Origin: Caldilineaceae bacterium
Lineage (GTDB): Bacteria; Chloroflexota; Anaerolineae; Caldilineales; Caldilineaceae
DNA: 64,000 nt
Assembly (NCBI GenBank): GCA_019637685.1
Contig: JAHBVF010000009.1
Location: forward strand, 1 to 64,000
Direction of reading: 5' to 3'
Shown here: piece by piece, positions 1-57,551 of the stretch
Numbering within the stretch: the first letter of the stretch is position 1
How the letters are laid out: every line of letters starts with the position of its first letter
Made by a program: the position numbers and the translations under genes
The notes under the pieces: model-generated
What the model saw: only the letters and a program-made list of their open reading frames with translations
Told to the model about the DNA's origin: nothing
The model's database searches: none

Positions 1-1482
1 TAGAGATTATGTCCATGTATTGGGAGAGTCCAAGATCGAAAAAATCCCCGTCAGGGGACTGTGACACAGTCACGGAATCATACTCCGGACTGGTGGCAAA
101 GCATCCAAGATCGAAAAAATCCCCGTCAGGGGACTGTGACTCATAGTAGTTATCGAACCGTCGTGTCTCATAGGTATCCAAGATCGAAAAAATCCCCGTC
201 AGGGGACTGTGACCTGTGTTGACCTCACAGATTTCCACGGTTCCGTTGAACTCCAAGATCGAAAAAATCCCCGTCAGGGGACTGTGACTACATCCACAGT
301 GAAACTTGAATCCCTCAGGAGCACCACCCAAGATCGAAAAAATCCCCGTCAGGGGACTGTGACGTAATACCGTAGTACTGAAACCAATTCCCCTCTTCTA
401 CCCCAAGATCGAAAAAATCCCCGTCAGGGGACTGTGACACAGCTCCATGTCCAGGTATCATTCGCCTTGCCCCCTCCCCAAGATCGAAAAAATCCCCGTC
501 AGGGGACTGTGACAAAGCGCCGTCCGTCCGTGCCGTTCATTCTTAGCGTTTCCCAAGATCGAAAAAATCCCCGTCAGGGGACTGTGACAAAGCGCCGTCC
601 GTCCGTGCCGTTCATTCTTAGCGTTTCCCAAGATCGAAAAAATCCCCGTCAGGGGACTGTGACCAAAATACGGCATTTTGTCCTCCTGCGCTTTCGCGCG
701 ACCCAAGATCGAAAAAATCCCCGTCAGGGGACTGTGACTCGCATCCACTCGATGTGGCTGAACTCAAACCGCATACCCAAGATCGAAAAAATCCCCGTCA
801 GGGGACTGTGACCTTCCTGCCCACCAACGACCACACGCAACCAGCGTGTCCCAAGATCGAAAAAATCCCCGTCAGGGGACTGTGACGCGGATCGCCGGAA
901 GGCGCTCCGCCATGTACACATGGCCCAAGATCGAAAAAATCCCCGTCAGGGGACTGTGACTGGGCCTTGGCCTGCTTCAAAATCTTGCCAAGCATCTCCC
1001 CAAGATCGAAAAAATCCCCGTCAGGGGACTGTGACCAGAACGGCGCGGGCTGGGATGCCGGCTCGGCCGGTCCCAAGATCGAAAAAATCCCCGTCAGGGG
1101 ACTGTGACGTCCTCTCAGACGATTGTGGGCGCATAGGGCCGTTTGCCCAAGATCGAAAAAATCCCCGTCAGGGGACTGTGACCTCGTACCCGCGGGAACG
1201 TCAAATTCGCCAATCTCGTTCCCAAGATCGAAAAAATCCCCGTCAGGGGACTGTGACAAGCATTCTCATGTAACTCGAGTTCATCACGTCTAAATCCCAA
1301 GATCGAAAAAATCCCCGTCAGGGGACTGTGACCGAATATATCGAGCTGTACGCCGGTCAAGGCATACAACCCAAGATCGAAAAAATCCCCGTCAGGGGAC
1401 TGTGACTTGGTGGCTAACCAATCCCCAACCAGCGTGACAGCCGCCCCCAAGATCGAAAAAACCCCCGTCAGGGGACTGTGAC
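1..1482 (+). CRISPR. CRISPR array, distal part, 20 repeats
   Basis: Twenty copies of a 36-bp repeat start at 30, 105, 178, 253, 328, 403, 478, 553, 628, 703, 777, 851, 925, 1000, 1073, 1147, 1222, 1297, 1371 and 1447. They are separated by 19 spacers of 37-40 bp; 1-29 is a partial spacer. The repeat begins CCAAGATCGAAAAAA, then a 5-bp stem TCCCC-GTCA-GGGGA, then CTGTGAC. If a Cas6-type enzyme cuts at the base of the stem, the 8-nt handle would be ACTGTGAC, which fits a class 1 array read on the + strand. The last repeat carries a T-to-C change in the stem, as expected at the trailer end, so the leader lies off the left edge. Spacers 7 (514-552) and 8 (589-627) are identical. No cas gene is in the window, so the subtype is not assigned. 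Confidence 0.98.
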
Positions 1483-36291: not shown

Positions 36292-37530
36292 CTAACGCGC
36301 CGTCACGGGCAGGAATATCTCGCCCCGCAGTGCGCCGAACAGGGCAAACTCTGTCAGGTGGTCCAGGGTGGCGGTGAGCAGACCGCTGGCCGGGTCGTAG
36401 GCGGTGGGGATGGATTCCCAGACGCCTTTGTCCTCGTCCCAATAGGCCAGATGGGGGCGGAAGATGTGGACCTCCTGCTGCTCCACCCTGGCCGTAGAAA
36501 GGGTGAGGGTGAAAGGCTGGAGAAATTGATGCACCTGTCCACCGCCGCTGGTATACGCGTCGATGAAGAAGCTGTTGCCCATCTGCCCCATCCCCGCTGG
36601 CCCGGCGTGGCCTGCGCTCACGCCGCTACGCAGATAAAGGGTTTCGCTCACCGCGCCGCCGGGAAAGTCCACCAGCAGGGAGAGATCGCCCACGACCAGT
36701 TGGGTCTGCAACCCGCTTAACACATCCACCCGGGGCTGCTTGGCCTCTCCGCCCAGCACAACATTGTCCAGAAACCCCTCGTCCCATCCATTTTCAAACT
36801 CGCCGCGGATGCGCAGATTGCGCACATCCTGCAAGACCGCCTGGATGTCCTCGGCGCTGGCCCGCACCCCCACCGCGGTGGAGATGGGTTCTGCCACACC
36901 GATCTTCATCCAGCCCGCGTCTGCGCTCAACGGAATCGAATATTCGGTCCACCGCTTGCGAGGGTTGAAGGCAGTGTTGTAGATAAGGGCGCTGCTGCCA
37001 CCGCTGATGATCACATCTGGCCCGCTGAATTGGCTGTTCATCTCCGCGTCCTGGCGCAGATCAAAGCTCAGGGTTCGGGAATAGGCAGCAGAGATATCGC
37101 CCAGGAATTTGGGCGGAGCCTCCCAATACCAGGTGCCGCCTTCCACATCGTCCGTGGCCCGCAGATGGCCGCCGGGATGACCGGCCTGGGGCAACCAGGC
37201 GGGCACACCCGATCCGGCCTGCACGTCCCCATCCACCCGCCAGCCCTCTCGGCCTGTGTCAAAATAGCTGGCAGCCACCGGTTCGGTCTGGGCCACGGGG
37301 GGAACAGAATCATCGCTTGGGCTGGCTGGCTGATTGTATGGCTGGCTGATTGGCTGGCTGGCAGCATTTGGCAACGGGGAATTGACGGCGGCGGCTTGGG
37401 CTGGTCCCAGCGAGGCAAGCAGCCCAACCGCCAGTGCCAGACTGACCAGCAGAGTGGATGCCAGCCAGCGCAGGTTGTGGCCGCGCCACGGGAATGAACG
37501 GGCCTGGGGGGATGTGGGGGATTTCATCAT
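36292..37530 (-). CDS. Secreted laminin-B-like domain protein with C-terminal FLP tail
   Basis: 412 residues. A signal peptide (about 1-46, ending GPAQA) precedes a Ser/Pro-rich linker, then a laminin-B-like domain (about 80-265: FDTGREGWRVDGDVQAG...HLRATDDVEGGTWYWEAPPKFLGDISAAYSRTLSFDLRQ...NLRIRGEFENGWDEGFLDNVVL), which is a carbohydrate-binding or structural sheet, and a C-terminal domain with repeated TLTLSTAR/ATLDHLTEFALF segments. It ends GEIFLPVTAR, a short tail shared in type with other secreted proteins here. ATG 37530 is preceded by GGAG. It is probably surface-exposed; role unknown. It lies next to the WSGG subtilase. Confidence 0.72.
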   Translation of the reverse strand: MMKSPTSPQARSFPWRGHNLRWLASTLLVSLALAVGLLASLGPAQAAAVNSPLPNAASQPISQPYNQPASPSDDSVPPVAQTEPVAASYFDTGREGWRVDGDVQAGSGVPAWLPQAGHPGGHLRATDDVEGGTWYWEAPPKFLGDISAAYSRTLSFDLRQDAEMNSQFSGPDVIISGGSSALIYNTAFNPRKRWTEYSIPLSADAGWMKIGVAEPISTAVGVRASAEDIQAVLQDVRNLRIRGEFENGWDEGFLDNVVLGGEAKQPRVDVLSGLQTQLVVGDLSLLVDFPGGAVSETLYLRSGVSAGHAGPAGMGQMGNSFFIDAYTSGGGQVHQFLQPFTLTLSTARVEQQEVHIFRPHLAYWDEDKGVWESIPTAYDPASGLLTATLDHLTEFALFGALRGEIFLPVTAR

Positions 37531-37727
37531 TTGCTCCTTTGACATTTGAATAAAGAATTCGCAACGGGCCGACCGTCGGCTTTGGATTGTTGTGTGTCGA
37601 CAAAAAGAGTGTAAACCAAACGCGCGGCCAATACATCCTGCAAAAGTAGGTTGTCCACGGGGTGCAAAAGTAGGCACGCTGCCCACCCGCCAGAATCCCA
37701 GGCAAATAAAACCCCAGATCAATAAAA
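37531..37727. other. Intergenic region upstream of the laminin-B gene
   Basis: About 200 bp with an exact repeat of GTGCAAAAGTAGG type (GCAAAAGTAGG occurs at about 37640 and 37664) and nothing that looks like a gene. It probably holds the promoter of the 36292 gene. Confidence 0.4.
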
Positions 37728-37772
37728 AAGCGTGACAGGGAGGATATTCCTGCAATCCTCCCTGTCACGCTT
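37728..37772 (-). terminator. Rho-independent terminator of the WSGG subtilase gene
   Basis: AAGCGTGACAGGGAGGAT (37728-37745) pairs perfectly with 37755-37772 over 18 bp; on the minus strand the stem is followed by TTTTTTATTG. It lies 52 bp beyond the stop of the subtilase gene. Confidence 0.9.
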
Positions 37773-37824: not shown

Positions 37825-40800
37825 CTACTTGCCGCTGCCAATCGAGGGCAGGAAGATGCGGTTCATCTGCTCTGGCACAACGCCATCCGCGCCGGCATCC
37901 GTGTCGAACACTGCCACAGTCACGCTGTTGCTGCCAAACTGGCCCTGCGGCCCATCTGTGCGCGTTGGGCTGGGCAGATAGCTGGTAATGGCTGTTCCGT
38001 TGCTGTCGCCGTCCGGGTCACTGTTGGCCGCCGCATCATACCTGTAGCCAGCCAGGGCCACGTCCTGCACAGTCAGCGTCATCCGATCCACTTTCTTGGA
38101 CTGTTGCGCCGATGTAACGATCAAACAGGCACCGTTCTCATTCGTCGTACAGTGTGCAGTGCCACTCACCCGATTGTTCGGGTCATCAATATCAACTGTC
38201 ACCTGTGCGCCGGGCTGCCTGTGGCCTGATGCGTCGGAAATTTCCACAACGAAGGCTCCACTCCACTTTTTACTGCTTTCCCAGTAGCTCAGGTTGTCCA
38301 AATCGCTCACATGCAGGACGCCTGTTTCGTTGTCGTTCGTTGTTTGCTCCGGGGTGGGTTCCGCCGTTGCCACCGGTTCGGGCACAGGTGTGCTGCTTGC
38401 CGGCGGGCTGGATGGGCTTTCTGACTCTTGCCCGGTCTCATAGGCGTCGGCGTCGTCCACCCATTTGCTGGCCCCCAGCGATGCACTGCCGGTTGAGCCA
38501 CTCCAGGTGGGCAGGCCGCCGCTCCACGTGGGGACCCGCCCGGCCCAGGCCATTCCGCCGGACCAGAGAGGCATCCCGCCGCTCCACAGGGCTAAACCAC
38601 CGCTCCAGGTGGGCAATCGCCCGCTCCACAGCGCCAGCCCGCCGGACCAGGTGGGCAGACCACCGGCCCAGTTCAAACTGCCGGACCAGGTGGGCAATCC
38701 TTCGGCCCAGGTGCCTGTGTTGCCAGACCACAGAGGCATGCCGCCGCTCCACAGGGCCATACCACCACTCCACGTGGGCAGGCCGCCGCTCCAGGTGGGC
38801 AGGCCCGCGCCCAGAGAAATACCACCCGCCCAATGCACGCCGCTGTCTAAGGTTACTTCTCCACCGCTCCAGGTGGGTAGCCGGTTGCTGATTGTCTCGG
38901 CGTCCAGCCACATGCCGCTCTGGGCATCCGCCATGCCCAGGCCATAGACCTGACCGTCTGCGTCGGCCATATAATAGAGAATACTCTCGCCGTCGTCGCT
39001 GAGCAGTTTGGCCGCTGGTCCCTGATAGTGGCCGGCCAATTCTTCGGGCGAGCCGTAGCCGTGGCTCAGGTCCCAGTGGATGTCCATTCCCTGGTTGGCC
39101 GCGGCGTCTGCCGGGAAATCGGCCAGGACAGCCGCGGGCGCCCAAATGCGTCCCATGCCCTGCTGCATCAGATTGTAGATGGGCGTGGCTTCTTCTGTCA
39201 CCGCGGGCAGGGCCGAACTCATCAACCGGTATTTGACCTGATCCGGTGTCAGGTTGGGATTGGCCTGCAACATCAGAGCCACCACACCAGAGGTCACGGC
39301 GGTTGCCATACTTGTGCCGTTCATACGGAAGAGACTGATATTGGTCGAATAGTCAGGATGTTCCTGCACCAGTTGCGCGCTTTTTGAATTGTTCGCGTGA
39401 TCGTTGTACATAAAGGAAACGATCTGGCTGCCTGGGGCCAGGACATCCGGCTTCAGGAAACCGTCGAAAGTGGGGCCGGCCGCGGACCAGCGGGGCAGCA
39501 GATCGCCTGTCCAGTAGCCCGGTGTGCGCTGACTGTCCACCGCGCCCACTGTAATCACATAGGGATTGTTGCCGGGCACGGTCACGCTCTCGGCCAGGGG
39601 ACCCACATTGCCCGCCGCGGCCACAACTGTAATCCCCGCGGCCCAGGCTTCCATTACCGCCCGGTTGAGCGGGTCTACAAAGTAGGGGGTGGTCGGGTGG
39701 GCGCTCATACTCATATTGAGCACCCGAATGCCGAAATAGTCCTTGTGCTGAACCACATACTGGATGCCCTGGATGGCGTCAGCGTAGGTTCCGTTGCCGT
39801 GGCCGTCCAACACCCGCACGCTCAGAATTTTGGCGTCGGGCGCTACGCCCAGATAAACGCCCGTGCCAAAGTCGGTCATATTGTTCCAGATGGCCCCGGC
39901 CACGTGGGTTCCGTGTCCATAGCTGTCTTTGCTGTCTTCGGAACCTGTAAAGCAGTGATTTTCGTATTGCAGACCAGACGTATAGGTCGATTTGTTCTTC
40001 TGGTAGGTGTCACACTGGCGTTCAACAAAATCGGCCTGGCCCAAAAAGAGCTTCTGCACCTGCTGGCTCATCTCGTGTTTGACCTGATCGTCAAAGTAGA
40101 CACCCGAATCGAGGACGGCAATGGCAACGCCCCGGCCAGTAACTTCGTCGTCTCCGGTGTGTAGCACATCAGCACCGATATCGATGCCAAAGGGATTGGC
40201 CAGGTCCCATACCTTCTTCTCATTGATGTCTTTCACATCCGGGCGGCCATTCCACTCTTTGGGCAGTTTTCCCAGTGAGCTAACGCTGTTGCCGTTGGGC
40301 AGAAAGATTGTGCCCCCCGCGGTGGTCAGTGCTGAACGGGTCACGGGTGGAAAGCCGGAAAAGTGTGTCACCACACGGCCGTCAGCGGCCAGAACGGCTA
40401 CTTCGCCCAGCAGATCGCCCACATAGACATTGCCGTTGGCCTCTACCGCGGGCAGAGCCACAATATCGCCCTCTGCCGTGTATTCCCAATCCACTGCACC
40501 ATTGGCCGCGTTCAGTGCATAGAGTTCCTTTTCCTTCTTGGCTACATAGACCCGGCTGCCATCGGCAGAAAGCACCGGGCCAGTCTCCAGATTCCCAGGC
40601 GTACGGAACTCGAAACGGCGGGAGCCATCGGCGTTGATAGCGATCAGGCGGTCAGGCGCCACCGAGACAAAGAGCGTACCATCCGCGTCCACCACGGGTG
40701 TGCCGCGCAGATCGCCGGGCAGGTTGTATTGAAAACGTTGGCTGCCGGTGCTGTTCAGGCCATAGACCCGTTGTTTGCCAATCGCATAGACTGTGCCATT

Positions 40801-41775
40801 GCTCGCGACAAGCGGGGCAGAGGCCAACAGTTGTTCTTGCCCCGCATTGAAACTCCATTTGAGGGTTCCATTGCTGTTGAAAGCGTCGATCTGTCTCTGA
40901 TTGTTTTTCGAGTCGCCCGTATAGGCCAGATAGACCGTGCCGTCAGCACCCACAACCGGCGCACCGATGACGGCATCTGCTTTTACGCCCGCCAGGCTGG
41001 TGTCCCAGCGCAACTGCCCTGTGTCTGCGTGATAGGCGTGCAGCCGCCGCTTTCCGACCACTACATAGACCGTGCCACCGGCGATGGCTGCGCCTGTGCC
41101 ATACTCTTCATTGCCGTTGATCCGACTGTCCCAGCGCGGGGTGCCGCTGCTGTCAAAAGCAAACAGATTTCTGCCCGCACTGACAATGACCAGTCCGGCT
41201 CCGGCAGACAACCCGGTGGGAGCACTATTGCCGATTCCCAGTACTGTGTGGCGCACCATCTCCGTGCCATCTGCACCAAAGAAGACCAGCGAGCCGTTGT
41301 TGCCCAGGGCCGCGGCCCCACCGGTGTCCAGCGCCACCAAACCGACCAGTCCAGTCCCACCCACGGCCTGACTGGGACGGCGTACCAATTTCCTGCTCAC
41401 ATAGCCGTCCCAGCCATCGGTGGCGGGCTGGGGGGCCTGGGCGCTGCCCACCGAGCTATTGGCCACCACCGAACGGATGCCGGAAGTGTTTGCCAGTCTG
41501 CTCAGGGCCGCGGCGGGAATGCTGGCCGCTACCGCGTCCACCAGCCAGAGATCGGCCGTCACAGAACCCCCCGCGGCCTCTACGGCTGTAGCCGCGGCCT
41601 GGCTGTCCCCCGCGGTCACAATTACCGACAGGGCGGGCGTATCTTCCGCCAGCAGGGCTGCTTCCACATAGGCCGGTGCGCTCGTAGCGGTTCCCACGGC
41701 TGGTGCGGCCTGGGGAATGCCCAGCAGTGCGGCGGTCAAGAAAAATGCCAGAAGTGTATGGATCGAAAAACCCAT
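37825..41775 (-). CDS. Secreted subtilase with N-terminal PQQ-like propeller and WSGG repeats
   Basis: 1316 residues. A signal peptide (1-26) is followed by a propeptide-like part, then a PQQ-type propeller (about 130-470: repeated DTGQLRWDTSLAG, GTLKWSFNAG, VDWEYTAEG), and an S8 peptidase domain with the triad Asp in AIAVLDSGVY (about 554), His in YGHGTHVAGAI (about 623) and Ser in NGTSMATAVTSG (about 820). Residues about 965-1100 hold 17 imperfect heptads of LPTWSGG/MPLWSGG type. After a Pro/Thr-rich linker a C-terminal sheet domain (about 1170-1300) ends RIFLPSIGSGK. Start ATG with GAGG. It is exported; the WSGG stretch may be a wall- or membrane-binding or fibre-forming region. A propeller placed before the catalytic domain is unusual. 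Confidence 0.85.
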   Translation of the reverse strand: MGFSIHTLLAFFLTAALLGIPQAAPAVGTATSAPAYVEAALLAEDTPALSVIVTAGDSQAAATAVEAAGGSVTADLWLVDAVAASIPAAALSRLANTSGIRSVVANSSVGSAQAPQPATDGWDGYVSRKLVRRPSQAVGGTGLVGLVALDTGGAAALGNNGSLVFFGADGTEMVRHTVLGIGNSAPTGLSAGAGLVIVSAGRNLFAFDSSGTPRWDSRINGNEEYGTGAAIAGGTVYVVVGKRRLHAYHADTGQLRWDTSLAGVKADAVIGAPVVGADGTVYLAYTGDSKNNQRQIDAFNSNGTLKWSFNAGQEQLLASAPLVASNGTVYAIGKQRVYGLNSTGSQRFQYNLPGDLRGTPVVDADGTLFVSVAPDRLIAINADGSRRFEFRTPGNLETGPVLSADGSRVYVAKKEKELYALNAANGAVDWEYTAEGDIVALPAVEANGNVYVGDLLGEVAVLAADGRVVTHFSGFPPVTRSALTTAGGTIFLPNGNSVSSLGKLPKEWNGRPDVKDINEKKVWDLANPFGIDIGADVLHTGDDEVTGRGVAIAVLDSGVYFDDQVKHEMSQQVQKLFLGQADFVERQCDTYQKNKSTYTSGLQYENHCFTGSEDSKDSYGHGTHVAGAIWNNMTDFGTGVYLGVAPDAKILSVRVLDGHGNGTYADAIQGIQYVVQHKDYFGIRVLNMSMSAHPTTPYFVDPLNRAVMEAWAAGITVVAAAGNVGPLAESVTVPGNNPYVITVGAVDSQRTPGYWTGDLLPRWSAAGPTFDGFLKPDVLAPGSQIVSFMYNDHANNSKSAQLVQEHPDYSTNISLFRMNGTSMATAVTSGVVALMLQANPNLTPDQVKYRLMSSALPAVTEEATPIYNLMQQGMGRIWAPAAVLADFPADAAANQGMDIHWDLSHGYGSPEELAGHYQGPAAKLLSDDGESILYYMADADGQVYGLGMADAQSGMWLDAETISNRLPTWSGGEVTLDSGVHWAGGISLGAGLPTWSGGLPTWSGGMALWSGGMPLWSGNTGTWAEGLPTWSGSLNWAGGLPTWSGGLALWSGRLPTWSGGLALWSGGMPLWSGGMAWAGRVPTWSGGLPTWSGSTGSASLGASKWVDDADAYETGQESESPSSPPASSTPVPEPVATAEPTPEQTTNDNETGVLHVSDLDNLSYWESSKKWSGAFVVEISDASGHRQPGAQVTVDIDDPNNRVSGTAHCTTNENGACLIVTSAQQSKKVDRMTLTVQDVALAGYRYDAAANSDPDGDSNGTAITSYLPSPTRTDGPQGQFGSNSVTVAVFDTDAGADGVVPEQMNRIFLPSIGSGK
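38488..38880 (-). repeat. WSGG heptad repeat array in the subtilase
   Basis: About 17 copies of a 21-bp unit coding [LMV]-[PA]-[TL]-W-[SA]-G-[GSNR], several with synonymous or small variants (MALWSGG, MPLWSG, LALWSGG, NWAGG). The regular 21-bp spacing and the Trp at the same place in each copy suggest expansion by duplication and a repeated aromatic-Gly fold. Confidence 0.92.
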
Positions 41776-42281: not shown

Positions 42282-43103
42282 CTATACCCCGCTAAAAGCG
42301 GAAAAGCCCCCGTCCACTGGCACGACAATACCTGTGACAAAAAGGGCGCTGTCGCTGGCCAGCCAGACAGCCGCGCCGATCAGTTCCTCTGGCTCGCCAA
42401 AGCGGGCCATGGGTGTGTGATCCACAATCGTCTTGCCCCGGGGGCTGGGCGTGCCGTCGTCATTGAGCAGGAAGCCCCGGTTCTGGTCGCCGATGAAGAA
42501 GCCGGGCGCAATCGCATTGACCCGCAGCCCTTCGCCGTATTTTTGGGCAAAATCCACAGCCAGCCAGCGGGTGAAGATATCGATGGCCGATTTGGCCGCG
42601 CTGTAGCCCAGCACGCGGGTCAGGGCGCGCTGGGAAGCCATAGAAGAAATGTTGATAATCGAACCGCTCTTCTGTTCCATCATCACTTCGCCAAAGATCT
42701 GCGTGGGCAGCACCGAGCCATTGAAATTGAGCGCCATCACCTGATTCACGGCTGACTCCGGCATATTGAAAAAGGTCACATCCCCCACAATTGTTGAGCC
42801 GGGGATATTGCCCCCCGCGCCGTTGACCAGAATGTCGATACGACCCCATTTGTCCATCAGCGTCTGGCGAGCTGTTCGCAACGCCTCTTTATTGAGAACA
42901 TCCGCGGGCAGTCCGATGGCAGTGCCGCCGTCCGCGACGATTTCAGCGGCCACGTCATCGGCCACATCGCCCCGCCGGCCCAGAATGCCGACATGCGCGC
43001 CGGCGGCGGCCAACCCCCGGGCAATTGCCCCACCCAGCACGCCTGTACCGCCGGTGACGACCGCGACTTTGCCTTGCAGCGAAAAGAGAGATTGAAGATT
43101 CAC
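42282..43103 (-). CDS. SDR oxidoreductase, fructuronate/mannonate oxidoreductase-like
   Basis: 273 residues. An SDR with VTGGTGVLGGAIARGLAAAG (cofactor loop), ILVNGAGGN, SIINISSMAS with the Ser, and GYSAAKSAID with Tyr and Lys. The N-terminal MNLQSLFSLQGKVAVVTG and the GFFIGDQNRGFLLNDDGTPSPRGKTIVDHTPM segment fit the D-mannonate oxidoreductase (fructuronate reductase) SDR branch. It would reduce D-fructuronate to D-mannonate. It is divergent from uxaC, the isomerase that makes fructuronate from glucuronate, which supports this assignment. GGAG ten bases upstream of ATG. Confidence 0.78.
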   Translation of the reverse strand: MNLQSLFSLQGKVAVVTGGTGVLGGAIARGLAAAGAHVGILGRRGDVADDVAAEIVADGGTAIGLPADVLNKEALRTARQTLMDKWGRIDILVNGAGGNIPGSTIVGDVTFFNMPESAVNQVMALNFNGSVLPTQIFGEVMMEQKSGSIINISSMASQRALTRVLGYSAAKSAIDIFTRWLAVDFAQKYGEGLRVNAIAPGFFIGDQNRGFLLNDDGTPSPRGKTIVDHTPMARFGEPEELIGAAVWLASDSALFVTGIVVPVDGGFSAFSGV

Positions 43104-43148: not shown

Positions 43149-43208
43149 AGGATTGTACTACCCTAGGCGGAGATGTCAATCTCTGTTCGCCCCACGAAAG
43201 GAAATGCC

Positions 43209-44636
43209 GTGACCCACACCACCTCTCACGCACCCAACCGGCAGGATCGCTACTTTAGCGCGGAGCCGGGCCAGCGGGCGGTTGCCCGCCAGTTGTTCCA
43301 ACAGGTGGGCAGCCTGCCCCTCATCTGTCCCCACGGCCACGTGGACCCGCACCTCTTCGCGGACCCGGAGTACCGCTTCAGTTCGCCCACAGAGATGTTT
43401 CTAATTCCCGATCACTACATCTTCCGGATGCTCTATTCCCAGGGCATTTCGATGGAGTCCGTCGCCATTTCCCCGCGAGACGGCGGGCCAGTCGAGACGG
43501 ATCACCGCAAGGCCTGGCAGATTTTTGCCGAGAATTTCCACCTCTTCCGGGCCACGCCCACAGGGATATGGCTGGTGGATGAACTGCACGATCTGTTCGG
43601 CATCACCGAAAAGCTGAATGGCAAAAGCAGCCAGGCCATCTACGACGCCATCGACGCCGCGCTACGCACACCCGAATTCAGCCCCCGGCGGATGTTCGAG
43701 CGCTTCAATGTGGAAGCCCTGACCACCACCGACCCGGCCACTTCTACCCTGGCCGATCACAAGGCCATCCGGGAATCGGACTGGTCCGCGCGCATTCTGC
43801 CCACCTTCCGCCCGGACGCGGTGGTGAATCTGGATATGGACGGCTGGCGGCAAGAGATCGAACGGCTGAGCGAGGTTTCCGGCGTGGATGTGCGGGACTA
43901 TTCGTCCTATATTCAGGCGTTGGAACAGCGGCGGGCGTTCTTCAAAGAAATGGGGGCCACGGCCACAGATCACGCGGCGCTGACCGCCCACACGGAGATT
44001 CTGAACAGCCGGGAGGCCGAGGCGATCTTCCAACGGGCGCTGGCGGGCAAGGCAGATGGCGAAGACGCCCGTCGCTTCACCGGCCATATGCTGGTGGAGA
44101 TGGCCCGCATGTCCTCCGAAGACGGGCTGGTAATGCAGCTGCACATTGGCTCCTATCGCAACCACAACCCGGCCATCTACGAGCGCTTTGGGCGGGATAT
44201 GGGCGCTGACATCCCCATTGCCGCCGAATTCACCCGCAATCTCAAGCCCCTGCTGGATCGCTTTGGCAACGCGGCCAATCTGACGCTGATTCTCTTCAAT
44301 CTGGACGAGACGACCTATGGGCGGGAGCTGGCGCCCCTGGCCGGTCACTACCCGGCCCTGCGCCTGGGACCGCCCTGGTGGTACTTCGACAGCATCAACG
44401 GAATTCGCCACTTCTTTGACGCTGTGGTGGAGACCGCGGGGATTTACAACACAGTGGGCTTCAACGACGACACCCGGGCCTTTCCTTCCATCCCCACCCG
44501 CCACGAACTCTGGCGGCGGGTGGCCTGCGATTGGGTGGCCGGTCTGGTGGTCCAGGGCATTGTGGACGAGGAAGACGCGTCCGAAATGGCCCACGATTTG
44601 GCCTACGGGCTGGCGAAGAAGGCGTACCGCCTGTAG
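43209..44636 (+). CDS. uxaC: Glucuronate isomerase
   Basis: 475 residues, first enzyme of hexuronate degradation, converting D-glucuronate to D-fructuronate (and galacturonate to tagaturonate). An amidohydrolase-like fold with PLICPHGHVDPHLFADPEYRF (HxH metal site), PDHYIFRMLYSQG, EALTTTDPATSTLADH, MQLHIGSYRNHNP, and RLGPPWWYFDSINGIRHFFDAVVE; the final GFNDDTRAFPSIPTRHELWRR is typical. GTG 43209 is chosen because AAAGGAA precedes it; ATG 43173 lacks a proper ribosome site, and the difference is 12 residues. Divergent from the fructuronate-reductase-like SDR, so the two form a pathway pair. Confidence 0.92.
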   Translation: MTHTTSHAPNRQDRYFSAEPGQRAVARQLFQQVGSLPLICPHGHVDPHLFADPEYRFSSPTEMFLIPDHYIFRMLYSQGISMESVAISPRDGGPVETDHRKAWQIFAENFHLFRATPTGIWLVDELHDLFGITEKLNGKSSQAIYDAIDAALRTPEFSPRRMFERFNVEALTTTDPATSTLADHKAIRESDWSARILPTFRPDAVVNLDMDGWRQEIERLSEVSGVDVRDYSSYIQALEQRRAFFKEMGATATDHAALTAHTEILNSREAEAIFQRALAGKADGEDARRFTGHMLVEMARMSSEDGLVMQLHIGSYRNHNPAIYERFGRDMGADIPIAAEFTRNLKPLLDRFGNAANLTLILFNLDETTYGRELAPLAGHYPALRLGPPWWYFDSINGIRHFFDAVVETAGIYNTVGFNDDTRAFPSIPTRHELWRRVACDWVAGLVVQGIVDEEDASEMAHDLAYGLAKKAYRL

Positions 44637-49360: not shown

Positions 49361-52300
49361 TTATTCCGCGGGTACAAAACAGACCTGTTGGGCGGCCAGG
49401 GCCGGGTGGTCATAGCCGTACTGATCCGTCACCTGCCACATTTCTGCATTGCCTGTGACAAGTTTGGTTACGCTCTCACAAGCTGCTGCAACATCGCCAT
49501 CAGCCACAAAAGCGTCCAGCCACTGGGTGGCAGCTTCGCTGTAGTTGCTGTCGGGCTGGCCTGCCACCAGCCCCGCCAGTGTGATCTGGGCCGCGTCCAC
49601 ATCGCCCCCCAATGCCTGGGCCTGGATCAACCGGAAGGAGGCCAGCCCCTGCAGGCGAGCCAACTCTTGGGCCGCGTCCAAACCGAAGAGACTGCACGCC
49701 TGCAAAGAGGGCTGTTCCAGGCTGTTTCGATAGAGCGTTATGGCTGGCCCATAGCCCAGCACATCCGACGCCTGCAGGGCCACATCCGCCTCCACCAGGC
49801 GCAGCCCCAGACAGTCGTTGCCGTCGGCGTTGCGATCATACTGCCAGGAAATACGGCGGAAGGGCGCGGCACCGATGCTCTGCCAGATTTCCGTGTGGGG
49901 CACGGCCAGCCCGCCGCCTGCGGTGCCGCTGACACCCCCCACCAGCCGAATCTGGCGGCCCTTGCCCGGCATACCTCTTGTCACCGGTTCAATGGTAACT
50001 TTGCCGCTGGCCAAAGCCGCGCCGGGCAGCACAGCCTGGGCGTATTCGCCGCTTTCCTTGTCCCAGGTCAGCCCCAGCAGACTGGTCACACAGAAAGTAG
50101 AACAACTTTCCACCTGCCAGATCAGATCAGGCATGCGGTCGCCGTTGGCGTTGCCCCAGAAAAGCGGTGTTGGCTGGCCGAAGATTTCCGGGGAAAGGGC
50201 CAGATCAAATCCGCCCTCTTCATTGCCGTGGAAGAGCAAGAACGCTCCGTCCGCGCCGCCCGGTCCATAGCCCACATCGCTGATAATTGTGGGGAAGATG
50301 AGCAGGTCTTTCCGTTTATCGTTGTTGAGATCAAAGAGTATCAGCCCGCCGCGCTCGTCGGTCAGAGCGTCACAGGAACGCAGCCACGCATCGATCACTG
50401 GTTGGCTACCGCCGGTGGCCTCCAGCACGTCGGTCAGGGTTTCCTGATATTCGGTGATACCCGCGGGACACCCAGGCAGATCGTCCAGAGAAATATCTGG
50501 CGCGGCCGTGCTCTCGGTATTCGTAGCGGTTTTCGTAGCAGTGGGCGTAGTGTCTGTGCTGGCAGTCGGTTTGGGGGACGGTTCCAATTCAGGCACAGCC
50601 ACATCCAGAATCGGGCACACGTCGTCGGCAGTAAAGGTGGGATTGGCATAGCCGTAGTCAGCCAGCACCTCCACCGCGGCCGGATTATCTGTGACGAAAT
50701 TGGTCACCAGCACGCAGGCTTGCAAGGGATCACCCGAAGCCACATAACTTTCCAGCCAAAGGTTACCCACCTCTGCATAGGGCTGGGCAGGATAGCTGTC
50801 GGCCAACTGGTCAATGAGGGCCTGGGCTGTCTCCATATCTCCTGCGTAGCCCGCAATTTGGGCCAGCCGGAAGAAAGCGAAGGAACGCAGTTCGTCCAGT
50901 TCGTTGGTATGGGTCCAGCAGGCGTTGTAGTCCTTTTCAAAAATTGCCTTTGAAAAGAGGGATTCGGCCAGCTCAAAGTCCAGATCGACGGCGAAAGCCC
51001 GGTTGGCATCCAAAATCAGGTGATAGAGACAGGCACTTTCGCCGTAGCTCTCCGACACAAGGCTGTAGGGCGCGCCATCGATGCTGGCCCAGACTTCGGT
51101 CCGATCCCGCTGGGGACCCGCGCCCACGCTGCCGTAGGTTCCGCCGCTGAGTGTCAGTTCGGCACCGCTGCCGGTTTCATCCACATCAGCAATGGATATA
51201 TCTGCCGAGGCCATTGTGATGGTTCCATCGGTCCAATCCTGCCAGCTGTTCCCGTCCCAACTGCGTACGTAAATTGTGTCGAAGCAGGTGCTGGCCCCAC
51301 AGGTGGTGTCCTGCCAAATTACATCTGTTGCCCCATCGCCATTGACATCTTCCGTGGCGAGCAACTTCACGCTGCCGGCTGCACCGGCCACGTATTCGGT
51401 CGCATAGCCGCCGCCATCCACTCCATTGGCAATCAGCAGATCGCCCTGGCCCGCGCCCGCTGTGGCGCTCTCGCCGGCCAGCGTATAGACGAGCACCAGA
51501 TCAGCCAGCCCGTCCCCGGTAAAATCACCCACCACCGGGCCATCGCTGGTGAAGCCACAGCCAGCCAGGAAAGAGTCCAGCAGTGTGCCCGTTCCGTCGT
51601 CTTGACTCAGCACATCCAGCAGCGGAGTGGACGCAATCGCCAAATCCACCGGGCAAGCAGGCAACACGGAATTGGGGTCGTGGGTGGGCGTGGCTGTGGG
51701 CTGGGTTGTGGGGGTATCCGTGGGCAGGGCTGTGGGTGTATCCGTTGCTGTCGGCGTGTCCGTGGGCAGCGGTGTGGCTGTGGCCGTCGGTGTCTCTGTG
51801 GGCGCAGGTGTGGCCGTATGGGTCGGGTTTGGTGTCGGCGTTGGGGTCGGCGTCGATGTTGGCGTCAGCGTTGGCGTGGCTGTCGCGGTGGGTGTGTCCG
51901 TGGGCACGGGTGTGCCGGTAGGCGTCGCCGTGGCCGTAGGCGTCGCCGTGGCTGTCGGGCGGCTCTGGGCCGGGCCAGGGATCAGCAACCGATCCCCCAC
52001 GTAGAGCACCAGGTCTGAGCGCACATAACGGGGATTGGCCGCTTGCAGCAGAGAGGTGGGAATGTCAAAACGGTCGGCGATGATTGTCCAGCCATCTCCG
52101 GCCTGCACAGTATAGAACTGCTCCTCCGCCACCGGTGCTGTGGGGATTTGCAGTTTCTCCCCCACAATTAGCCAGCCGCTAGGCCGCACAGCCTGGGGAT
52201 TGGCCGCCCGCAATTCTTCCACAGACAGGCCTACCCGTTTGGCGACGACAGTCCAATTGTCGCCAACCTGCACGGTGTAGGTATAGCTGCCTTCCTGGGC

Positions 52301-55667: not shown

Positions 55668-57551
55668 ATGACTACTCAAATCTCCCGATTCCAGCGGCTG
55701 CTGCTCCTGGCATTGCCGCTGGTGCTGTTCGTGTGGTGGATGGGAACCCTGCCCAGCCAGGCCCAGGAAGAGACGCCTGTGACCACTGAATCACTGGCCG
55801 CGATTTCTCCTTCTCTGGCCCAGCAATTTTCTGAGACAGATGGGAAAGTCTCCTTTCTGGTGATTCTGGCCGAGCAGCCCGATCCGGAAGGCTATCTGGC
55901 CCGAATGGGCTTACGTTCTGCCAGCCGTATCTCCAAAGGCGAGGCTATCTACCGCTATTTGAGTGGGTTTGCCCGGGTTCGGCAAGCACCCCTGCGGGCC
56001 TGGTTGGACAAGCAGGGCGTTGCCTACCGTCCCTTTTATATTGTCAATGCCATGGAAGTGCAGGGGGAGGAATCGTTGGCCCAGGCCCTGCGCGCCAGAA
56101 CAGATGTGGGGCGGCTGGCATCCAATCCGGAGGTCGCACTCTCGGTTGTGGACACGCCGGAAGATGCGGCCGCGGCTGCCAATGTCGCGGCTGCCAATGC
56201 AGACATTAACAATCCCGACACGGCCAATCCCCCCCCCGACCCGCCCTATGGCATCCGCTATGCCAACGCGCCGGTGGTGTGGGCTATGGGCTACAGAGGA
56301 GAAGGGATTGTCCTTGCCAGCCAGGATACAGGTGTAGACTGGACCCATCCGGCCCTGCGCGATCAGTATCGGGGCTGGATTACGGCTACCCAGACAGTAA
56401 CCCATCCCTACAATTGGTATGACGCCTGGGGCACTGCCAGCCGCGGAAGCTGCGACCCGGACCCACAAGTGCCCTGCGATGACTACGGCCACGGAACCCA
56501 CACAGTGGGCACACTGGTGGGGGACGATCCCCGCAGCGGGCTGATCACCGGGATGGCCCCCGGTGCCCAGTGGATCGGTTGCCGAAATATGACCCAGGGC
56601 AACGGTACACCGGCCAGCTACATGAGCTGTTTCGAATTCTTTCTGGCTCCATTTCCCCAGGACGGCGACCCGCAAACCGACGGCGACCCGGCCAAAGCGC
56701 CCCACATCATCAACAATTCCTGGTATTGTCCTCCGGAAGAGGGGTGTGATTTTGCCTCCTTGCGCCAGGTGGTGCAGACGGTGCGGGCCGCGGGTCAGCT
56801 GATTGTCGTGTCAGCGGGTAACAACGGGCCAGGGTGCAGCACTGTGCGATATCCCATCTCCGCCTATCCAGAGGTGTTCAGCGTGGGCGCGCACAATGGC
56901 GCAGGCAACATCACCGGTTTTAGCAGCCGAGGGCCGGTCACTGCGGACAGCAGCGGGCGACTGAAACCAGAAATCAGCGCGGCCGGAGATGGAGTGCTCT
57001 CGACGATCATCGGCGGCGGCTATGGCAACAACAGCGGCACCAGTATGGCCTCGCCCCACGTGGCCGGCGCGGCCGCGCTTCTCTGGTCAGCCGCACCCCA
57101 TCTCATCGGCCAACTGGACGAGACCGAGCAGATTTTGATCAAAAGCGCGACGCCTGTGCTGCACAACGGCTGTGATGATGCACCAAACCCGGTTTCGCCC
57201 AACAATACCTATGGCTATGGGCGGCTGGACGCGGCCAATGCCGTGACAATGGCCCTGCACGCGGGCGCAATCACAGCAACTGTAACGGGGGTGAGTAGAG
57301 GGCAACAGGGGGTTACTGTTACACTGACGGATCAGCGGACAGGCGCTGTACGCACAGGGCAGAGCAACAACGAAGGGGAAGTTGTTTTCCCGCGCGTCTA
57401 CCTGGGCGATTACGTAGTCGCCGCGGAGAGAAACGGCATTGCAGCGACGGCCAACCTGGCCATCCGGCCCGACGAACAGAAACTGGTACGCCTGTCGCTG
57501 GTGACAATTCTCTACTTTCCACTGATTGTTGACCAGCCATTGCTGCCATAG
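55668..57551 (+). CDS. Secreted S8 subtilase
   Basis: 627 residues. A signal peptide (about 1-32, ending LPSQAQ) and an I9-like propeptide (about 58-155: VSFLVILAEQPDPEGYLARMGL..., VAYRPFYIVNAMEVQG) precede the peptidase domain with ASQDTGVDWTHP (Asp, about 220), YGHGTHTVGTLVG (His, about 276), HIINNSWYCPPEEGC (oxyanion Asn) and NNSGTSMASPHVAGAAALLWSA (Ser, about 457). A C-terminal sheet domain (about 540-610, carboxypeptidase-regulatory-like: GVSRGQQGVTVTLTDQRTGAVRTG) is followed by a short hydrophobic tail, ILYFPLIVDQPLLP. Several paired cysteines suggest disulfides. Exported peptidase of unknown substrate, with a tail of the same style as other secreted proteins here. Confidence 0.9.
   Translation: MTTQISRFQRLLLLALPLVLFVWWMGTLPSQAQEETPVTTESLAAISPSLAQQFSETDGKVSFLVILAEQPDPEGYLARMGLRSASRISKGEAIYRYLSGFARVRQAPLRAWLDKQGVAYRPFYIVNAMEVQGEESLAQALRARTDVGRLASNPEVALSVVDTPEDAAAAANVAAANADINNPDTANPPPDPPYGIRYANAPVVWAMGYRGEGIVLASQDTGVDWTHPALRDQYRGWITATQTVTHPYNWYDAWGTASRGSCDPDPQVPCDDYGHGTHTVGTLVGDDPRSGLITGMAPGAQWIGCRNMTQGNGTPASYMSCFEFFLAPFPQDGDPQTDGDPAKAPHIINNSWYCPPEEGCDFASLRQVVQTVRAAGQLIVVSAGNNGPGCSTVRYPISAYPEVFSVGAHNGAGNITGFSSRGPVTADSSGRLKPEISAAGDGVLSTIIGGGYGNNSGTSMASPHVAGAAALLWSAAPHLIGQLDETEQILIKSATPVLHNGCDDAPNPVSPNNTYGYGRLDAANAVTMALHAGAITATVTGVSRGQQGVTVTLTDQRTGAVRTGQSNNEGEVVFPRVYLGDYVVAAERNGIAATANLAIRPDEQKLVRLSLVTILYFPLIVDQPLLP

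Follow-up and report, generated by a model that had tools for sequence, protein, structure and literature searches.

A C-terminal tryptophan array appears to define a cross-phylum clade of subtilases genomically tied to signal-transduction genes

To judge from sequence and gene order, the subtilase encoded at positions 37825 to 41775 (minus strand) of a 64,000-nucleotide stretch of a Caldilineaceae contig (JAHBVF010000009.1; hereafter, the window) appears to belong to a cross-phylum clade of S8 peptidases that is defined by its tail and genomically tied to signal-transduction genes, a result that goes beyond the initial annotation of this gene. The hallmark of the clade, as read from its members, is a C-terminal aromatic array of Trp-centred units of 5–7 residues, flanked by a conserved linker on one side and by a WV-x-[DQE] cap strand on the other. 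We tentatively propose, as a plausible reading rather than a probable one, that these exported proteases form the extracytoplasmic input of signalling pathways, with the array as a putative docking or ligand segment.

The open reading frame encodes a protein of 1316 residues (table 1), which the initial annotation described as an exported subtilase with a propeller ahead of its catalytic domain; the Pfam matches and the hydrophobic N-terminus are consistent with this description. The Peptidase_S8 match is unambiguous (E 1.3e-50, 172.8 bits versus a cut-off of 21.8), and the S8 motifs are complete (DSGV at 556, GHGTHVAG at 620 and GTSMA at 820), so that the enzyme looks active by its motifs. 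Upstream, PQQ_2 matches in four stretches (E 1.8e-40), and the propeller is also present in two relatives (L086 and L095). The propeptide-like region carries a pattern common to the N-termini of short relatives (SVIVTA...GG.V...L.LIDAVGASIP...LA..P) and has no Pfam match. Near the other end, the weak Ig-like match (E 0.051) is stronger in L095 (E 2e-7), and the terminal [IV][FY]LPx[IV] motif is common to several open reading frames of the same genome, both tailed and untailed. Taken together, the propeller, the Ig-like domain and the LP tail suggest surface attachment.

Table 1. Features of the subtilase gene in the window (all on the minus strand; residues counted from the start of the translation).
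Feature	Positions	Strand	Residues	Basis or remark
Signal peptide	41698..41775	-	about 1-26	hydrophobic N-terminus of the translation, read by eye
Subtilase propeptide-like region	41437..41679	-	about 33-113	by comparison with short relatives only
PQQ_2/BamB-type beta-propeller	40276..41343	-	about 145-500	between propeptide and S8; PF13360, PF13570
Peptidase S8 catalytic domain	39184..40137	-	547-864	PF00082
Post-catalytic linker	38881..39168	-	870-965	motif QQGxGRIWAP..ANxGMDI..DL..HYxGP, found clade-wide
Trp array	38494..38880	-	966-1094	17 W[SA][GE]x units; period 7, some hexads in between
C-terminal cap motif KWVDDAD	38446..38469	-	1103-1110	counterpart TxWVxD / SINxWVEQE in alignments of relatives
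Ig-like (Big_1-type) domain, weak	38089..38247	-		PF02369
C-terminal [IV][FY]LPx[IV] motif	37828..37857	-		IFLPSIGSGK; recurs in other same-genome open reading frames

As in Thermococcus Tk-SP and Bacillus Vpr (MEROPS S8), which were the best Foldseek matches (E 2.7e-21 and 1e-20, respectively), the protein combines the D/H/S motifs of PF00082 with a signal peptide and a propeptide-like region; these matches cover the catalytic part, whereas the window protein adds a PQQ propeller before it and a Trp-periodic array after it. Identity with BamB was rejected (TIGR03300 scored 61.8 bits against a cut-off of 285.2), the propeller fold alone being in common. Among the PADLOC models, the S8 domain matched the generic subtilase PDLC03014 (E 7.8e-32) and IetS only at 4.2e-6; the protein has a hydrophobic N-terminal signal, and none of the Pfam-named genes nearby (36292-37755, 42282-43103 and 43173-44636) encodes an AAA ATPase. 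The NucA-peptidase conflict system, from an eLife 2020 paper with a single mention of S8, is a different system.

The tail begins irregularly and then follows a largely heptad spacing. Its Trp residues lie at positions 969, 982, 995, 1002, 1009, 1016, 1023, 1030, 1036, 1043, 1050, 1057, 1064, 1071, 1077, 1084 and 1091, that is, with a spacing of seven save for two intervals of 13 (7+6) and two of six; Trp-less spacer units stand between W969 and W995, and this start element is conserved in relatives. The count of about 17 repeats given by the initial annotation was thus right, while its strict pattern, [LMV][PA][TL]W[SA]G[GSNR], fits only 13 of them, the units varying from LPTWSGG to MALWSGG, LALWSGR and TGTWAEG. 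Ten W[SA]G-x4-W[SA]G pairs occur in the protein, against a maximum of zero in 1000 shuffles of it. The near-periodicity of the DNA at 21 bp was recovered in a looser form: Tandem Repeats Finder reported units of 21 and 42 bp with 66–76% match, and nucleotide identity between units averages 58%. Since the Ser residues of the WSG units use both AGY (nine) and TCN (four) codons, the array is old and kept at the protein level; these mixed codons and the low identity between units rule out fresh slippage as its source.

The recurrence of such tails in relatives proved to be strong. All subtilases with an intact Trp array fall in a single clade (110 of the 123 rows of the tree; SH-aLRT 93), with members in Chloroflexota, Acidobacteriota, Gammaproteobacteria and other groups, whereas the clearly tail-less S8 paralogues of the same genome form long branches outside it. 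The window protein lies inside this clade, and within a subclade of 31 rows, and displays its marks, namely the linker motif, the Trp array (of period 5–7 in the clade) and the WV cap. A catalytic-domain query from which the tail had been excluded retrieved 79 loci, and arrays are present in nearly all of them. Columns of the linker motif are invariant or nearly so (alignments A1, A3 and A4), and a W[VI]-type cap, predicted with low confidence as a short strand in the window protein, follows 64 of the 72 arrays scored. In a scan for W.GG heptads in 120 relatives, every dense W[SA]GG array retrieved lay on a contig with a located subtilase (the clusters of eight genomes, G101 and G118 excluded), the scattered single hits being due to chance or low complexity. 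We found no name for this clade and, searching the open literature by motif strings or keywords, no paper on its repeats.

Within the clade, the periodicity itself is kept (5, 6 or 7 residues), while motif and copy number turn over, from about 4 to 58 copies with Trp or Tyr as the aromatic residue. Variation in heptad number, as initially anticipated, is seen even between close relatives, where proteins with 94% identical catalytic domains carry 12 versus 23 tail Trp, although assembly of metagenome-derived genomes may collapse repeats. Mixed TCN and AGY codons in 38 of the 51 arrays with at least five Ser, and third codon positions that agree only at 64% between identical units, indicate that the repeat sequence is under selection at the protein level. 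Trp is not an absolute requirement, as one member (L084) is built of GVGYYYLGG units and is poor in Trp.

A signalling gene lies within 600 bp of the tailed subtilase in 63 of 79 assessable cases (16 are without), versus 18 of 297 background genes with one within 1.5 kb, the loci being phylogenetically non-independent. The classes counted were STAND-ATPase/TPR/cyclase, histidine kinase, HD-GYP, GGDEF/EAL and Reg_prop sensor. Whereas the phmmer queries for neighbours were drawn from a handful of the same loci, a Pfam scan restricted to the one gene nearest to each subtilase is free of that bias: at 76 loci it detected TPR_12 (28), AAA_16 (21), Guanylate_cyc (13) and HisKA (9), and more rarely Reg_prop (6), GGDEF (5) and EAL (4), against two TPR_12 and, among the families listed, none of the other six in 73 random genes. 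Twenty further loci of the phylum all contained a clade member, at least 16 of them with a signalling neighbour. This adjacency suggests that the enzyme helps cells to sense their surroundings. However, the neighbours of the STAND/TPR/cyclase class seem to be cytoplasmic, and many of them are convergent with the protease gene rather than operonic; adjacency is no proof of physical coupling, and the neighbours could merely regulate the protease or be co-regulated with it.

The histidine kinase, HD-GYP and GGDEF neighbours possess one common N-terminal module of six to seven transmembrane segments, the layout of MASE-type sensors, which likewise bear different outputs. An HMM built from the kinases retrieved two HD-GYP proteins (E values of 1e-32 and 1e-40) and also hit new ones, with E between 1e-11 and 1e-21. 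At locus L065, an internal module matches MASE9 (PF20972; E 3.6e-9), and the common module itself has no MASE9 match at E 0.001. Different outputs are here carried on one input module, next to one exported protein. In the literature searched, we found no paper on MASE9 ligands and no description of a MASE-type sensor paired with a subtilase.

In the mechanism that we infer, the multivalent Trp array would dock on the sensor or the envelope surface, or be presented to either of them; a readout of how active or how abundant the protease is on the outside would then reach the cell interior through histidine kinase, c-di-GMP and cyclic-nucleotide pathways. It is unlikely, though conceivable, that these are self-contained signalling proteases across phyla, each with its own tandem Trp-peptide array, released or tethered, as the ligand of adjacent sensors, including the MASE9-like module driving histidine kinase, HD-GYP or GGDEF outputs. 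The window gene itself adjoins Laminin_B-domain, SDR and UxaC genes and no signalling gene, nor has any tailed subtilase of its genome a signalling neighbour; a signalling role for this protein would therefore be inferred from family membership.

A possible but more doubtful reading is that the tail is a flexible, Trp/Gly/Tyr-rich sticker-and-spacer segment by which a degradative protease stays attached to the cell wall, the S-layer or the biofilm matrix, or self-assembles, the signalling neighbours controlling only protease expression or biofilm state. Array composition (22% G, 14% W, 11% each of S and A, with few charged residues), the lack of a confident fold, the differing copy number of close relatives and the CBM96, Ig-like, F5/8C or Reelin-type domains added in some members are all consistent with anchoring, as is the fit of adjoining c-di-GMP enzymes with biofilm control. 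However, cyclic-nucleotide, histidine kinase and c-di-GMP enzymes, several with one sensor module, exceed the needs of a surface protein, and position-specific irregularities (a unit lacking Trp midway through gammaproteobacterial arrays, a WAGG-x4-G start in the group of the window) suggest something beyond generic stickiness.

The stacked or fibrous fold first suggested for the repeats found no support in structure prediction. AlphaFold2 models of a period-7 and a period-6 array, from shallow, low-complexity alignments of 24 and 28 sequences, gave pLDDT of 20–35 with neither strands nor helices, leaving such a fold, or a beta-solenoid, unsupported. The array had no match in a PDB sequence search even at E 10, and the window tail matched no Pfam family at E 10, including Pentapeptide and choline/cell-wall- or other carbohydrate-binding repeats. 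We consider it quite unlikely that the array is a Trp-zipper-like beta-meander or solenoid binding carbohydrate or wall polymer, even though its units show an alternation between a short hydrophobic stretch and W plus a GG/DG/NG turn, and conserved linker and cap frame it. Where Trp has been lost, the distance remains close to a multiple of the period (all 29 cases in period-7 arrays and 52 of 65 in period-6 ones), which is also expected if Trp is simply lost by substitution, and a single fold would need to accept periods of 5, 6 and 7 in one clade. One period-5 array (L219) weakly resembles pentapeptide-repeat proteins (Pentapeptide_4, E 0.0023, below cut-off); the other five period-5 members scanned have no match, and the window array is of period 7/6.

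Least probable is a tandem precursor, cut by its own or another enzyme into short Trp peptides for an adjacent kinase, HD-GYP protein or, after import, TPR protein: units that are near-identical within an array and differ between lineages, a predicted accessibility and the pairing with receptors, TPR proteins included, would fit this reading. A precedent is RRNPPA signalling, in which extracellular proteases mature tandemly duplicated pheromone propeptides (secreted Phr) that Rap-type receptors then sense (PMC11343458). Here, by contrast, protease and repeats form one protein, the phyla, the receptors and the repeats themselves differ from those of RRNPPA systems, and peptide release would be hypothetical; no cleavage site was identified, the window units vary unlike a fixed pheromone, and array architecture is fixed in some orthologue sets.

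If the link between tailed proteases and signalling is borne out, an unannotated but large branch of the protease family that has been studied best would take part in bacterial sensing, and would provide a candidate ligand for membrane sensor modules whose signals we did not find described in the literature searched. In addition, the clade offers a natural series, in period, in aromatic residue and in copy number, for studying the action of a minimal aromatic repeat whose spacing is kept while its sequence is free.

The window subtilase belongs to a clade of S8 proteases that carry C-terminal periodic Trp arrays and are tied genomically to signalling genes. Its Peptidase_S8 domain (Pfam, E = 1.3e-50) spans residues 547–864, with the D, H and S catalytic motifs all intact, and is preceded by PQQ_2/BamB-type propeller repeats (Pfam, E = 1.8e-40), in agreement with the initial annotation, which had placed a propeller before the catalytic domain and about 17 Trp-Gly repeats after it. 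Indeed, the array comprises 17 Trp units (W969 to W1091), 13 of which match exactly the heptad pattern originally proposed; 10 period-7 W[SA]G pairs were counted in the protein versus none in 1000 shuffles of it. The Trp spacing is 7, except for two of 6 and two of 13 (7 + 6), the hexads being marked by three WAG units (VHWAGG, LNWAGG and MAWAGR). The repeat DNA, described earlier as near-periodic at 21 bp, does show periodicity, although a weak one, its units sharing 58% nucleotide identity. Within WSG, Ser is encoded by AGY nine times and by TCN four times, two codon families that are not interchangeable by single substitution; the array therefore appears to be ancient and maintained at protein level, not the product of a recent expansion.

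Features of the subtilase, its neighbour and other elements of the window
Feature	Position	Strand	Remarks
Subtilase ORF	37825-41775	minus	1316 aa
C-terminal LP motif, window subtilase	37828-37857		
Laminin_B-domain protein	36292-37755	minus	487 aa, exported-looking, domain E = 2e-17
C-terminal LP motif, Laminin_B-domain neighbour	36295-36318		IFLPVTAR
Second S8 subtilase	56298-57221	plus	645-aa ORF, without Trp tail
CRISPR-like array	29-1406		~37-bp direct repeat CCAAGATCGAAAAAATCCCCGTCAGGGGACTGTGAC, period ~75 bp
Short tandem DNA repeats	51684-51952		18-36 bp, GTGGGCGTAGCC..., GGTGTGGCCGTAGCC...; probably low-complexity coding sequence

In this genome and its relatives, several ORFs end in [VIL][FY]LPx[IVAM] plus 2–6 residues (also at L070, L072, L073, L075, L077 and others), and the form [FYW][LFIM]P lies near the C-terminus of 11 of 281 ORFs (392 kb) versus 1.8 expected from shuffles. 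This motif may act as a signal for sorting or processing specific to the lineage.

Among the approximately 22 subtilase loci of this 6.3-Mb genome, several have tails of varying period (GFTWSG, 6; SVNWN, 5; LPTWSGG and IPTWSGG, 7) and some have no Trp tail. Its relatives with named records belong to Chloroflexota, some of them to Caldilineaceae. An alignment stopping before the tail retrieved 79 loci from GTDB genomes, mostly MAG contigs, affiliated to Chloroflexota, Acidobacteriota, Gammaproteobacteria (Woeseia, Peristeroidobacter and Thalassotalea), Opitutales-labelled MAGs and one acidimicrobial MAG. Nearly all carry arrays (scored period 6 in 44, period 7 in 27 and period 5 in one), which bears out the recurrence in relatives at issue in the initial annotation. 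Their units are diverse (GYLWTD, AHLWPD, SYLWGD, GFDSWAD, GKSWGG), most Trp being replaced by Tyr in the GVGYYYLGG units of one locus (L084). A SEWAFLG/GEWAFLG-type Trp array at L060:2048-4351 (+) matches the Pfam ‘LED repeat’ below threshold (E = 3.2e-6). Searching open-access papers by keyword returned no prior report of the Trp tail.

In a tree of 123 catalytic domains, all intact-array members form one clade (110 rows, SH-aLRT 93), in which the tail-less label applies to rows with truncated ORFs and to the Tyr variant; the second window subtilase falls outside it, and several tail-less paralogues of the same genome sit on long branches, their exact position being uncertain. Period-5 members form a single group, and there are roughly a dozen switches between periods 6 and 7. 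As had been suspected, copy number differs among close relatives (e.g. 12 versus 23 tail Trp where the catalytic domains are 94% identical). Both Ser codon families are mixed in 38 of 51 Ser-rich arrays across the set, and third-position agreement between identical units averages 64%. A Trp-less mid-array unit in gammaproteobacterial arrays and a WAGG-x4-G element opening those of the window's group are conserved across deep divergence. Where an array lacks a Trp, the gap deviates from a multiple of the period by at most one residue in 29 of 29 cases for period 7 and 52 of 65 for period 6, a register that fits structural constraint or plain Trp substitution alike.

A signalling gene (STAND-ATPase/TPR/cyclase, histidine kinase, HD-GYP, GGDEF/EAL or Reg_prop sensor) lies within 600 bp of 63 tailed subtilases and is absent at 16 (phmmer, assessable flanks). 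None of the eight tail-less subtilases of the window's genome with complete flanks has one, and the sole ‘untailed’ row that does (L099_7317) is a fragment lying at the end of its contig; as background, 18 of 297 long genes have one within 1.5 kb. The window subtilase is flanked by the Laminin_B-domain gene (adjoining, same strand), an SDR and UxaC, with no signalling neighbour among the genes found beside it. Since a small number of tailed loci had supplied the phmmer queries, the test was repeated by Pfam, free of chosen queries. Among the families listed for the closest single neighbour at 76 loci were TPR_12 (28), AAA_16 (21), Guanylate_cyc (13), HisKA (9), HATPase_c (7), Reg_prop (6), GGDEF (5) and EAL (4). 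The control was 73 genes picked at random in the window's genome and in related Chloroflexota: TPR_12 occurred twice, and the 25 families listed include none of AAA_16, Guanylate_cyc, HisKA, Reg_prop, GGDEF or EAL; as both lists stop at 25 families, singletons could be missed in this control. All 20 further loci of the phylum, several from one genus, held a clade member, at least 16 with a signalling neighbour (kinases, HD-GYP, GGDEF/EAL or cyclase-AAA-TPR proteins). As the rows are phylogenetically related, p-values (e.g. 1e-39 for the neighbour count) overstate the evidence, and effect size and replication bear the argument. Neighbour class varies with lineage: beside tailed subtilases, Gammaproteobacteria and Acidobacteriota have Reg_prop periplasmic-propeller sensors, and Chloroflexota have histidine kinases, HD-GYP and cyclase-AAA-TPR proteins.

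One N-terminal 6–7 TM module is common to the neighbour kinases and to two of the three HD-GYPs tested, and at greater distance to the GGDEF proteins (L052, L087, L090, L099, L101, L107, L108, L051, L092 and other loci). With a kinase-built HMM, two HD-GYPs reach E = 1e-32 and 1e-40 and the others 1e-5 to 1e-9; in the replication set, the HMM also recovers four further HD-GYP neighbours (1e-11 to 1e-21). The module received no Pfam name at E 0.001; it is perhaps distantly related to MASE9, which is matched by an internal module of L065 (E = 3.6e-9).

Since one exported protein adjoins many output types, several on this common membrane module, an input-side role is favoured over ordinary local regulation. 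Alternatively, the array could be an anchoring tail beside regulatory neighbours, or a folded binding domain. The stacked fold suggested initially is unsupported, because AlphaFold2 shows no confident structure there and the window tail matches no Pfam family even at E 10. From residues 516–1110 of the window subtilase (24 sequences) and the hexad protein L146 (28 sequences), the catalytic domains were modelled confidently (top Foldseek ranks for the catalytic part: Tk-SP and Vpr) and the arrays without secondary structure (pLDDT ~20–35), a weak negative given few homologues and low-complexity sequence. The C-terminal WV cap is modelled as a short strand (pLDDT ~50–66), which might, at a guess, pair with the hairpin preceding the array, and one period-5 array gives a sub-threshold pentapeptide-repeat match (E = 0.0023). 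The array could also be a tandem peptide precursor, for which pheromone propeptides that are duplicated in tandem and undergo maturation by extracellular proteases set a real precedent (PMC11343458), but the units in the window vary, which weighs against a fixed signal peptide. Under the favoured input-side role, the tailed protease would act as the external component of a sensing pathway, with the aromatic array as its contact or ligand segment.
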